Below, piece after piece: positions 21,898 through 44,346 of a stretch of DNA of 44,355 nt. The number at the start of each line of letters is the position of its first letter. Position 1 is the first letter of the stretch. Position numbers and translations under genes: made by a program. The notes under the pieces were generated by a model. The model was not told the DNA's origin and ran no database searches. It saw only the letters and a program-made list of their open reading frames with translations. The stretch is from assembly GCA_910575255.1 (NCBI GenBank), contig CAJTEM010000006.1:1-44355 (forward strand), written 5' to 3'. This stretch comes from Lachnospiraceae bacterium (GTDB taxonomy: Bacteria > Bacillota > Clostridia > Lachnospirales > Lachnospiraceae).

Positions 21898-23435
21898 TTA
21901 CTCCTCATCTTTTAAGTTTTTCCGGTATTCCTTGGGACTGATTCCCACATATTTCTTGAATTTTATATAAAAATAATCAATGCTTCCATACCCTACCCGC
22001 TCTGAAATCTGGTAGACCTTCAGATTCGTTTCCTGTAGAAGCCGTCTGGCATTATTGATCCGGATAATGTCCAGAGAGTTATTAAAGCTCTCTCCCGTCT
22101 CTTTGCGGAACAGCTTCCCAAGATAAGCGCTGTTATAATTAAAATTCCTGGCAATCGTCTCCAGTTTCAGATCCTTGTCGTAATTTTTTTCCATATAGTA
22201 ATACACTCTGCGGATGATATTTCCGGCTCCGCCGGTGCCGATCTCCTGGCTGAGGCTTGTCAGGACCCCCTCAAAGCATTCCAGCAGCCGTGTCATATTC
22301 TCTGCTTCCATCAGCCTGCGGATGAGCGGCTGCAGCTTCTCATCAGACAGAGCTTCGGAATTATACTTCTTTCCCAGCTTCATCTGCAGCCGAAGCAGCT
22401 CCTGAATCAACAAGATCTTAATCTCCTGGCTTTTCAGCATATGCCAGGCACAATAGTCCCGAAACATCCCCATCGCACGCCGGATCCCCTCAGCCTCGCC
22501 TACTTCGATGAGCATTTCCAGGTACTCGACGGATACGGCTTCCCGGCTCTCCTCGAGATTACAGATAAGATCAATCGTCAGGATATCCTCTTCCCCAAAA
22601 ATGAAAGACTGATCCAAAAGATAGAGAGCGCTCTCATAGGAGCAAAAAAGCTCTTTCCAGCTGTGTACGTTATTGCCGATGGCCAGCCGGAAGCCGGAAC
22701 CATAATAGCTGGCCAGCCGCCGATTTCGCTTTTCTATCCGGCTTTTCCACTGTTTATAGGTAATGCCTTTTCCCACCAAAACAGCCCCCCTGCTATGGAA
22801 AAGGTTCCCATGCAGGCAGCATCCCCTTCAATCAGAGCCGCCAGCTTCTCCTGAAAATGCTTTTCCTCCTTGTCGCCATCCTCATCCTTGTCCCGGCATA
22901 CAGCCACGCAGAGACAGCTTCCCTCTATCGGAAGCTGATACAGCTCGATATCTCTTTTCAGATTTTCCGGGGAATCTTCGTTGAGGACTATCCGGCGCAG
23001 CAACTCCTGTCTGGCCTTATCCTCATTCCGGCTGTGATAGCTTTTCAGGTATACCTCCTGCTCCAGCTTTTTCCGGATTCTGCGTACATAACCCAGAAGT
23101 TCATCCTCATCAACAGGTTTTAAAAGATATCCTTCTACTCCCATGGAAATGGCTGTCTTGGCATATTCGAATTCTGAATACCCGGTCAGTATAATAAAAT
23201 GCCCCTGAAACCCCTGCTTTCTTGCCTCCTGGATCAGTTCCAGGCCGGTAAGCCCCGGCATCTTGATGTCAACCAGCACCAGATCTGGCTGATATCTCAG
23301 GATCCCTGCCAACCCTTCTCTCCCATCCTTTCCGCCAGGCACCAGACGATATCCTTCGGCATTCCAGTCAATCAGATCACAGATACCCTCTCGGACAATC
23401 TTTTCATCGTCAATGATCATTCCGGTAAATTCCAT
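21898..23435 (-). pseudogene. YesN-type response regulator, frameshifted in G6 tract
   Basis: Two adjoining frames make one regulator. The first (23435 down to 22734) has a receiver domain with Asp9/Asp10, phospho-acceptor Asp56 in LVLVDIKMPG and the LLKPVD lysine. The second carries the linker and a C-terminal AraC-type double helix-turn-helix (ETIARNFNYNSAYLGKLFRK and ISERVGYGSIDYFYIKFKK). The frames meet at six Gs (22785-22790, C on the plus strand). One extra G gives FSIAGGAVLVGKG across the join and a 512-residue protein, a normal YesN length. It may be a sequencing error, a true mutation or phase variation. It probably controls the nearby glycosidase or transporter genes. An extended -10 (TGGTAAAAT) lies at about 23474-23482. 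Confidence 0.85.
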
Positions 23436-23547: not shown

Positions 23548-23824
23548 TGTTCCGGGAGGTACGCCTTGGAACAAGGGGAGGGCAGCCGCCTGGAATGGTC
23601 TGCCTGTTTTTCCGGTTTCGAGATTAAGAATTCCTAAAATTTCTGATTTTTGCGAAAAACGAAACGAAAATTCACAAACTCGCTGCGCTCAGACAGTGTG
23701 AATTTTCGTTTCCACGCAAAACTCAGAAATTTAAGGACTTCTAAATCTCTGCAAAGTCAAAACAGGCAGACCATTCCAGGCGGCTGCCCTCCCCTTGTTC
23801 CAAGGCTGGATATCCCGTTTTCTT
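23548..23824 (+). repeat. Long hairpin element, copy 1
   Basis: About 277 bp. Arms 23563-23610 and 23759-23806 are reverse complements at all 48 positions. The 148-nt AT-rich core (23611-23758) has an imperfect 34-nt stem and then a perfect 16-bp apical stem (23661-23676 with 23697-23712) closed by a 20-nt loop. Copy 2 at 44072-44346 is in the opposite orientation with 142/148 core identity but only about 32/48 arm identity. Conserved edges are TGTTCC-N3-AGGTACGCC on the left and GGCTG...TTCTT on the right. No known family is recognised. It fills most of the gap between the response regulator and rpmB. Confidence 0.9.
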
Positions 23825-42105: not shown

Positions 42106-43128
42106 ATGAAAGCTGTACAGATTGTAAATCCCCAGGATCTGAGAATTATTGACATAAAAAAGCCTGCCCTCGATGAAAGAAACAATGTCCTGGTCCGGAT
42201 GACTGCCGCCGGTATCTGCGGATCGGACGGCACCATTTATCACGGAACCAATGCGATTGTCACTTATCCGCGGATTATCGGCCACGAGATGGTCGGTGTG
42301 GTAGAAGAAACCGGCGCTAATGTCAGAGGATTGCAGCATGGCGACCGGGTGATCATCAATCAGGTGGTCAGCTGCGGCCATTGCTATCCCTGCCAGATCG
42401 GACGCGGCAATGTCTGTGATGACCTGAAGGTTCGGGGCGTACATATCGACGGCGGTTTTCGGGAATATATCGCGGTTCCCGAATCTGACTGCTGCCGTCT
42501 TCCGGATTCCCTCTCAGACTGCGATGCCGTCATGATCGAGCCGGCCACCATTGCCATTCAGGCCTGCTCCCGGGCACAGCTTGCCCCGGACGATATGCTG
42601 CTGATCCTGGGCTACGGTGCATTGGGAAGCTCTGTTTTAAGGATTGCCAGACTGCTCTGCAGCCACATTATCGTTGCCTGCCGGACCGACGAAAAGCTGG
42701 AGGCTGCCAGACAAAACGGCGCGCTTTATACCATCAATGTCAGGAAAGAGGATCTCGAACAAAAGGTCAGGGAATACACCGGCGGACATGGCGCCACCGT
42801 ATCCATTGATGCTGCCAATGCCGGAGATTCCCTCGCTTCTCTGCTCAAAGCCACAGGTAATGCCGGACGGGTCATGGTTCTGGGACTTACCTCCGCTCCT
42901 GCCCGGATCGACCCCTTCCTGATCACTGCCAAAGAGCTGGATGTGCGCGGCTGTCGCCTGCAGAATCAGATGTTCGGCACAGCCATCGAGCTGATTCGCG
43001 AGGGAAAGCTGGATCTCAGCGGCAGTGTTTCCCACACCTTTCCTCTGACAAAAGCGCAGGAGGCCTTTGACTTCATTGACAGCCAGGATCCTTCTATCCG
43101 CAAAGTCGTGCTTACCTTTGACTTTTAA
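42106..43128 (+). CDS. Zinc-dependent alcohol/polyol dehydrogenase
   Basis: A 340-residue medium-chain dehydrogenase. The GroES-like domain has catalytic zinc ligands Cys38 (AGICGSDG) and His60-Glu61 (IIGHEMVG). The structural zinc set Cys90, Cys93, Cys96 and Cys104 is complete. The Rossmann domain has LGYGALGSSVLRIAR. The substrate may be a sugar alcohol, a sugar acid or threonine, as in sorbitol, L-gulonate and threonine dehydrogenases; I cannot choose. AAGGAG stands nine bases before the ATG. It probably shares a transcript with the LysR gene. The stop overlaps the convergent cbiK stop by four bases. Confidence 0.88.
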   Translation: MKAVQIVNPQDLRIIDIKKPALDERNNVLVRMTAAGICGSDGTIYHGTNAIVTYPRIIGHEMVGVVEETGANVRGLQHGDRVIINQVVSCGHCYPCQIGRGNVCDDLKVRGVHIDGGFREYIAVPESDCCRLPDSLSDCDAVMIEPATIAIQACSRAQLAPDDMLLILGYGALGSSVLRIARLLCSHIIVACRTDEKLEAARQNGALYTINVRKEDLEQKVREYTGGHGATVSIDAANAGDSLASLLKATGNAGRVMVLGLTSAPARIDPFLITAKELDVRGCRLQNQMFGTAIELIREGKLDLSGSVSHTFPLTKAQEAFDFIDSQDPSIRKVVLTFDF

Positions 43129-43931
43129 GAACAATCCATCTCTTTTTCTGACTTTTTTGCATGGCGAAGATAGATTTGGCGAATGCCTGCGTACTCTCCC
43201 AGGCCTTTCAGCAGGCATTCCACCTTGTATCCTCTGTGGAGAAGCCATGATTTCCAGGAATCCTCCTGTTCTCCGGCGATATCCCGACAGGCATGTTCTC
43301 CGGCTACCACCAAAAGCGGAACCAGAACTACCCTGTGCGGACGGCGGTTTTGCAGCAGTCTTTCTCTGTCCTCTCTGGCATCGGTGGCTTCTACAGTCCC
43401 CACAAGAATATCTGTATACCCCTCCTCAAGGAACGCCTGCTGCAGCCGGGCATAGGAAATATTCGCTTCATGCCCGGTACCATGACCCACCAGGATGCGG
43501 TCGGTCCCCGGCCGGCAACAGCTTTCCAGTTCCCGGCCCAGAATCCTGGCCACTTCCCGATAATCCTCTTCTTCGGTCAGCAACGGCTCCCCGCATACCA
43601 GAGTATCAAACTTCTCCCGATACCTGGCAATCGTCGCCTTCATCCGGTCGTACTCATATCCATGTATCACATGGGTGCTTTGCGCCAGCACCATCTGATA
43701 TCCTTCCTGCCAGAGCCGCCAGAGCGCCTCCTCCACAGACTCCACTACAATCCCCTCCCGCTCTTTCAAAATCCGTATGATCGTAGGGCTTGTATAGGCA
43801 CGCCGAAATTCCCAGTCTGCGAATTCCTCCCGTATCTCCTGTTCTATCACATCCAGAGTCCTCTCCCTCGTCTCCCGATGGCTGGTCCCAAAACTGATTA
43901 CCAAAACCGCCCGCTTTTTCTTATTCTCCAT
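43125..43931 (-). CDS. cbiK: Sirohydrochlorin cobaltochelatase CbiK
   Basis: A 268-residue anaerobic-type class II chelatase that puts cobalt into sirohydrochlorin for vitamin B12 synthesis. ISFGTSHRETRERTLD starts the fold. The metal-binding histidines are present as His150 (LVGHGTGHEAN) and His213 (AGEHACRDI), equivalent to the two active-site histidines of Salmonella CbiK. There is no signal peptide. No other cobalamin gene is in the window. It has its own promoter. Confidence 0.92.
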   Translation of the reverse strand: MENKKKRAVLVISFGTSHRETRERTLDVIEQEIREEFADWEFRRAYTSPTIIRILKEREGIVVESVEEALWRLWQEGYQMVLAQSTHVIHGYEYDRMKATIARYREKFDTLVCGEPLLTEEEDYREVARILGRELESCCRPGTDRILVGHGTGHEANISYARLQQAFLEEGYTDILVGTVEATDAREDRERLLQNRRPHRVVLVPLLVVAGEHACRDIAGEQEDSWKSWLLHRGYKVECLLKGLGEYAGIRQIYLRHAKKSEKEMDCS

Positions 43932-44002: not shown

Positions 44003-44071
44003 TCAATTATCCAAACACTTTCCAGAACGTACCTCCCGGCGTTCCTGTTCACGGGCCAATGTCGGTAAGTT

Positions 44072-44346
44072 AAGAAATCGCGAAACACAGCCAGGGAAAC
44101 GGGGAGAGCAGCCATCGAAAAGGGCCTGCGGATTTTGACTTTGCAGAGATTTAGAAGTCCTTGAATTTCTGAGTTTTGCGTTGAAACGAAAATTCACACT
44201 GTCTGAGCGCAGCGAGTTTGTGAATTTTCGTTTCATTTTTAGCAAAATTCAGAAATTTTAGGAATTCTTGATCTCGAAACCGGAAAAATCCGCAGGCCCT
44301 TTTCGATGGCTGCTCTCCCCGTTTCCCTGGCGTACCTTTTGGAACA
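44072..44346 (-). repeat. Long hairpin element, copy 2
   Basis: About 275 bp, opposite in orientation to the copy at 23548-23824. Arms 44090-44136 and 44285-44331 are reverse complements at all 47 positions. The 148-nt core (44137-44284) differs from copy 1 at six positions, and its apical stem and 20-nt loop are unchanged. An outer AGTTAAG (44068-44074) can also pair with CTTAACT (44348-44354), so this copy may reach the window edge. It fills most of 43932-44355, where no gene is seen. Confidence 0.9.

Follow-up and report, generated by a model that had tools for sequence, protein, structure and literature searches.

How do the two arms of a hairpin stay complementary to each other while they change from one copy of the hairpin to the next? 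The question was raised by two hairpins in the window, by which we mean the whole stretch of 44,355 nucleotides that was analysed, from a contig of a Lachnospiraceae bacterium. In copy 1, which reads on the minus strand, the outer arm at 23563-23610 forms 48/48 Watson-Crick pairs with the other outer arm at 23759-23806, and in copy 2, on the plus strand, the arm at 44090-44136 forms 47/47 with the arm at 44285-44331. The full pairing claimed in the original prediction was confirmed by this recount of the stems. Perfect stems in 200 mononucleotide shuffles of copy 1 reached at most 9 pairs, compared to 48 in the real sequence. The inner parts of the two copies are each 148 nt long and identical at 142/148 positions, as had been noted before, while the arms, for which a similarity of about 32/48 had been given, are identical at 33/48 alignment columns in our recount.

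The folded core of copy 1 lies at 23611-23758 and that of copy 2 at 44137-44284. We define the model strand as the one that reads GACTTTGCAG first, which by covariation is the minus strand in copy 1, and it is the plus strand in copy 2. Consistent with this, the R1 match of copy 1 (23614-23755) scores 158.9 bits on the minus strand and 63.5 on the plus strand, and that of copy 2 (44140-44281) scores 161 bits on the plus strand and 61.3 on the minus strand. Within the core of copy 1, all on the minus strand, unpaired motif 1 has its 5′ side at 23749-23758 (GACTTTGCAG) and its 3′ side at 23612-23620 (CGAAACCGG), motif 2 has its 5′ side at 23714-23721 (TTTTGCGT) and its 3′ side at 23652-23659 (TTTTTCGC, reading TTTTAGC in most rows of the core alignment described below), and the apical loop motif is at 23677-23696 (CTGTCTGAGCGNAGCGAGTT). 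The apical loop motif of copy 2 is at 44199-44218 on the plus strand. Copy 1 is flanked by a gene with a response-regulator domain (22734-23432, minus) and by the gene of ribosomal protein L28 (from 24064, plus), and copy 2 adjoins a cobalt chelatase CbiK gene (43125-43931, minus). In G014 a large inverted repeat of seemingly unrelated sequence (L114, 500-1140) precedes the L28 gene, and upstream of a response-regulator gene in G013 (L116) there are repeated units beginning TAATCTTGATAGAGATTATACCTGCGCCAG.

A small mobile element in many copies

The hairpin family is a many-copy family of small mobile elements of the MITE type (non-autonomous DNA transposons) in Lachnospiraceae-type bacteria, an assignment based on the terminal repeats, 8-bp target duplications and high copy number tested here. 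Terminal inverted repeats of the GTTACTGTTCAC type were found on both sides of full-length copies in the source genome (G000) and in G093, and the element termini read GTTAC...GTAAC. In G000 the element consists of an outer repeat GTTACTGTTCAC, an inner repeat CAATGTCAGTWAGTTAAG, a 16-nt unpaired stretch, the arm, the core and the mirror parts, with arms of about 44-48 bp that start with GCC and a core of 148 nt, or of about 98 nt in a shorter form. The left terminal repeat of copy 2, at 44041-44074 on the plus strand, follows the family consensus (GTTCCTGTTCAC + CAATGTCGGTAAGTTAAG), and its right terminal repeat lies beyond what the window reaches. G093, which is assembled as one 6.9-Mb contig, has ends of the same kind and perfect 8-bp duplications, and its arms were aligned over 56-69 bp, reaching the end repeat in 8/10 copies fetched. 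Element size is 335-340 bp in five G000 copies with clear duplications and 287-289 bp in five G093 copies. Among 90 distinct hairpin places the 8-bp duplications had no mismatch at 10, one mismatch at 5 and four or more at 70, counts that use whichever of several candidate end pairs fitted best at each place, without a shuffle control, and in which the two window copies were not resolved.

When a parent element was sought, exact ends facing each other at a distance of 1-4 kb were absent from G000, and G093 gave no such pair even at one mismatch. Genes of the IS66 family and UPF0236 genes were considered as the source of the transposase and set aside, as neither had a flanking pair of hairpin-element ends within about 1.5 kb in G000. 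A 558-bp element at L006 covers this hairpin together with a second hairpin type. An element of 144 bp that shares the GTTACTGTTCAC ends occurs at two loci, L038 (294-438) and L063 (532-676), and at L038 it is bordered by the 8-bp duplication AGAGATTT. The hairpins L252-L254 (G114) and L255-L262 (G136) have similar core motifs and, by eye, seemingly other end sequences, and therefore the core may be carried by more than one transposon type.

A 26-nt core pattern, searched with up to three mismatches, occurred at 130 places in G000 (63 + 67), at 91 places in G017, a different species within the genus, and once or twice in each of four more genomes, and was absent from the other 55 of the 61 genomes searched. 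A covariance model found the hairpin structure in 31 of 195 related genomes including the source genome, some of them assembled as 1 or 2 contigs; its copy counts are lower bounds, scoring having been limited to 16 candidates in each genome. In the phage collection a single contig, MT837089.1, matched in part (40% of the query, E 2e-16). This contig (L201), from a human fecal sample, carries a hairpin of the same kind with stems of its own. There was no match in the plasmid collection and no exact match to one pattern among viral contigs, all three collections being ones that may omit records near the source genome. Several contigs of G000 and G017 break in or near hairpins, so that draft genomes may undercount the copies. 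A link with lack of the hairpin nuclease SbcD in the host was considered and rejected, since SbcD reaches its cut-off in at least 22 of the 31 hairpin genomes, as against 129/195 overall. In 82 G000 copies the orientation relative to the neighbouring genes, by crude ORF calls, was the same in 30, opposite in 27, convergent in 15 and divergent in 10, indicating no preference.

The original prediction had named a match to a described Rfam or MITE family among the outcomes that would refute it. The ends and duplications place the element in a known class, the MITEs, while no family of Rfam 15 reaches its gathering score within the window, where nearly all matches below the cut-off are to hairpin-like miRNA models. 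We found no description of the hairpin family or its motif among the papers listed by the literature searches, which covered few subscription papers, and regard it as a MITE-type family with an unusual folded core that adds to the structured mobile elements. Bacterial MITEs with long stem-loops, such as NEMIS/Correia, ERIC, RUP, YPAL and RPE, are described in the accessible part of a survey (PMC2229807), and the hairpin resembles NEMIS, ERIC, RUP, YPAL and RPE in being small, mostly intergenic and present in many copies, with terminal repeats, target duplications and a stable hairpin. According to the same part of that source, NEMIS, ERIC and RUP have TA termini and the long stem-loop MITEs have 4-24 contiguous terminal pairs (PMC2229807). 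In contrast to NEMIS, ERIC and RUP as described there, the Lachnospiraceae hairpin has 8-bp duplications and GTTAC ends in place of TA termini (PMC2229807), and it differs from them also in its near-perfect arms of about 44-69 bp and in the near-fixed unpaired motifs that sit on co-varying stems.

Unpaired motifs on the co-varying stems of the core

The core alignment comprises 32 sequences over 146 columns, contributed by five congeneric genomes (G000, G005, G014, G017 and G022) and by the phage contig MT837089.1. These came from 33 sequences picked out of 116, L147 being left out afterwards, and were anchored on the loop (two mismatches allowed) and on TTTGCAG and CGAAACC (one each). Compensated changes were found in 33 of the 48 core pairs. 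Of the cells, 96.4% were paired, compared to 83.4% in shuffles, and the covariation score was 0.433, compared to 0.167 in shuffles and at most 0.121 in slid versions. To call the core a conserved block would be incomplete. Its stems co-vary, and it is the unpaired motifs GACTTTGCAG/CGAAACC, GCGTT/TTTTAGC and the loop CTGTCTGAGCGNAGCGAGTT that barely vary, although for the end motifs this conservation is partly by construction, the scripts having been anchored on near-matches to the core ends. Among the 71 full-core G000 copies a single loop column varies, with 29 T, 20 G, 16 C and 6 A when read on the core-plus strand, and the others are nearly fixed. By description alone, the core can be likened to integron attC sites, which have fixed unpaired bases and a free stem, and the family to the bcr1 repeats of the Bacillus cereus group, which are mobile intergenic repeats with co-varying stems.

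Facing unpaired columns of the core, followed in 93 copies from all genomes, are mostly fixed as well, with A-A at 26/123 in 92/93 copies and C-C at 69/84 in 93/93. Watson-Crick pairs do occur at two single core mismatches, in 8 of the 93 copies at 21/128 and in 14 at 37/112, so that correction of the kind proposed for the arms seems possible at core mismatches, while being mostly opposed. When core pairs depart on one side only between sister copies, A-C is seen 43 times and G-T 16 times on the core-plus strand (p 0.0006); over all G000 copies the numbers are 98 and 23, with related copies counted many times. As A-C on the core-plus strand is G-T on the model strand, the wobbles favour the model strand, and there seems to be selection on one folded strand of the core. 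Selection on a cruciform only was set aside, as the core would then be expected to show no preference for either strand.

The loop contains GCGNAGC, a DNA mini-hairpin motif with a GNA loop that is reported, in the available part of the source, as extraordinarily stable (PMC4686876). We take the resemblance to such a mini-hairpin as a lead only. Tentatively, the folded strand might be a working RNA or ssDNA hairpin that a protein would read through the three unpaired motifs, spread through the bacterial order by transposons perhaps differing in their ends, with its arms mutually renewed. A related account would make the hairpin single strand the mobile intermediate, with one arm re-synthesised on the other at each jump and the three unpaired motifs serving as the landing site of a protein. 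The nearly fixed loops on free stems, seen across species and in one phage contig, the strand bias in the core and the GCGNAGC of the loop are all in line with it, but the 8-bp duplications and terminal repeats would point to an ordinary transposase that cuts and joins. Moreover, the mismatch at arm position 7 is common to five G000 copies (L005, L007, L010, L011 and L023), which argues that the arms are not rebuilt at every jump, and we consider this account unlikely. Among the options of the original prediction was a mobile hairpin in which one arm serves to rebuild its partner; rebuilding at every jump is not needed, and it is argued against also by the unpaired segments outside the arms, which are kept in at least the 74 of 119 copies typed left/right.

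A second hairpin type (TCTTAGCTCGCAGGAATCTGCG...) has the same unpaired motifs and loop on different stems, and matching motifs occur also in the phage contig. It was found at the right flank of L006 and at L003, L005, L007, L015, L054, L065, L080, L087 and L093.

Mismatches and concerted changes in the arms

To follow the arms through the family we extracted 128 copies, 92 of them from G000, from among the pattern matches listed (100 of 130 in G000). For the arm counts 112 of the 128 were kept, eight being dropped for poor or displaced arm alignment and eight because their flanks were short or ambiguous; the 71 G000 copies with a full core supplied the core columns and 35 sister pairs. Perfect pairing did not prove general, and one refuting condition of the original prediction thus applies in part: in a loose alignment the arms are free of mismatches in 27/89 G000 copies and most copies carry at least one, though 4015 of 4129 aligned pairs in the trimmed G000 arms are Watson-Crick. 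The remainder, on the strand that reads as in copy 1, comprised 37 G-T, 42 A-C and 35 other mismatches, in addition to nine gap columns. In G093, where 8 of the 10 fetched copies could be anchored, there were nine arm mismatches on the model strand, 8 G-T and 1 A-C.

Could the matched arms have been made by the assembler, short-read programs having merged the two arms of each hairpin? Several contigs of G000 and G017 end inside or close to the core, showing that these repeats did trouble the assembler. Yet the same pattern is found in the single 6.9-Mb contig of G093, hairpins are present in G019 (2 contigs), shared mismatches survive in G000 and the stems co-vary between species, and we regard an artefact as highly improbable.

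In the 12 closest sister pairs (<3% divergence) there were 14 one-sided and 7 concerted arm events in 1126 sites, compared to 16 changes in 648 unpaired core sites. Per site, events in the arms are thus not more frequent than those in the unpaired core, and the hypervariability of the arms is partly double counting. When the pairs were sorted by increasing divergence into four bins, the sites with a one-sided arm change made up 1.2, 2.4, 2.5 and 3.8%, and those with a concerted Watson-Crick change 1.2, 3.7, 8.2 and 15.9%. Transversions accounted for 46 of 106 concerted arm events, a number that excludes nine double changes without Watson-Crick pairs on both sides, and for 23 of 76 one-sided arm changes in the 35 sister pairs (p 0.09), so that the concerted events do not have fewer of them; at unpaired core sites they were 28 of 89 changes. 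The concerted arm changes in four G093 pairs comprised 18 transitions and 19 transversions.

These counts bear on the idea that the whole hairpin, arms included, is selected as a folded RNA or single strand and evolves by ordinary compensatory changes, without any special copying. The strong covariation of the core with wobbles biased to one strand, and the 8:1 ratio of G-T to A-C in the arms of G093 on that same model strand, would be in line with such selection. In the G000 arms, however, G-T and A-C are equally frequent (37 and 42), and transversions, which a G-U step is unable to bridge, make up 46/106 of the double changes there and 19/37 in G093. The G-U route is therefore insufficient for the G000 arms. 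In addition, terminal repeats that lie inside the hairpin co-vary, though a transposase should read their sequence, and the copies have no preferred orientation to neighbouring genes. Selection over the whole hairpin is accordingly a doubtful explanation for the arms.

Contiguity of the hairpin and proposed copying between the arms

The terminal repeats differ between the two genomes in whether they belong to the hairpin. In G093 the repeat forms part of the continuous arm; where it departs from the consensus, the change was two-sided in 17 cases and one-sided in 5 (by eye, 8/10 copies). In G000 the unpaired stretch separates the inner terminal repeat from the arm, and in 33 copies 3 departures were two-sided and 32 one-sided. 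The Fisher p for this contrast, 1.5e-7, is too small because the copies are related, and the G093 departures include at least five distinct two-sided changes. One variable site of the G000 end repeat is uncoupled between the two sides (TA 16, AA 6, TT 6, AT 4, CA 1). Co-variation of the end repeats follows the contiguity of the hairpin.

The segments outside the arms were typed as left and right flanks in 74 of 119 copies, and 40 were not fully typed. Right-type flanks on both sides were found in L155 (identical) and L017 (nearly identical), left-type flanks on both sides in L013 and L104, and in L110 the core is inverted between its flanks. Same-flank copies and an inverted core are what copying between the arms predicts, though they are few (same-flank 4/119), and the left/left state of L013 and L104 may be the normal one of a sub-family with GGTAC on both ends.

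We therefore favour, as the probable explanation, a MITE with a long hairpin whose arms are matched by templated copying of one arm onto the other and whose core is protected by selection, in view of the equal G-T and A-C counts, the many transversions among double changes and the co-variation that tracks contiguity. A transposase supplied in trans would move the element. On meeting the hairpin, a replication fork would let the polymerase switch template inside it and recopy one arm from the other, whereby an arm mutation would either be removed or come to stand on both sides. Most unpaired motifs of the core would be kept from this correction by selection for a folded single strand (RNA or ssDNA, with GACTTTGCAG first); the fixed core mismatches imply that correction is opposed there or does not reach there. 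As 2.8% of the G000 arm pairs are mismatched, arm correction would be roughly 70 times faster than mutation per base if the mismatches are neutral and at steady state.

Several observations, the fixed core mismatches among them, speak against arm copying. The 8 G-T to 1 A-C mismatches of G093 would be in line with arms that are themselves selected as part of a folded strand, the share of one-sided arm changes increases with divergence as well, and arm mismatches are unrelated to proxies of copy age (rho 0.02 with nearest-neighbour distance, 0.03 with core deviation). DNA-level correction, which the original prediction had deduced from perfect pairing, is nonetheless the best-supported reason for the matched arms, though not a proven one: its initial grounds were weakened, as most copies carry mismatches and the core stems co-vary, and others took their place, namely the mismatch classes, the transversions and contiguity.

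The accessible parts of several papers describe related processes in other settings. In E. coli, template switching at quasipalindromes turns imperfect inverted repeats into perfect ones (PMC7202029), and it has been suggested that perfect stems arise and persist through template switching (PMC8794818). The Lachnospiraceae hairpin shares with quasipalindrome correction the perfected repeats, homogenised arms and inversion of the spacer (PMC7202029, PMC8794818, PMC8604942). Those papers, as far as their accessible text goes, deal with reporters, genes and RNA genes, whereas here a mobile family offers many parallel trials with an internal control, provided by the core and the cut-off terminal repeats. 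Perfect inverted repeats kept through evolution are likewise reported, in the available part of the source, from mitochondrial genes of Nematomorpha, where repeat conversion was proposed and template switching is given as one possible cause (PMC6649704). The Nematomorpha repeats are scattered in coding genes, while the present hairpin is one mobile family with a conserved unpaired core (PMC6649704). The family is a natural test of how perfect stems survive mutation and of whether DNA copies one arm onto the other. With arms, end repeats inside and outside the hairpin and unpaired sites all in one element, templated arm copying can more readily be told apart from selection on RNA folding.

Four pairs of loci, L177/L006, L171/L076, L157/L002 and L186/L075, each joining G000 with G017 or G022, were considered as copies at the same site and rejected; they share an intergenic region, differ in their ends or orientation, and look like separate insertions. 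At the right flank of L021, tandem copies of an arm-end unit (GGCGTACCCTCTGTTCCAA) lie beside a hairpin.
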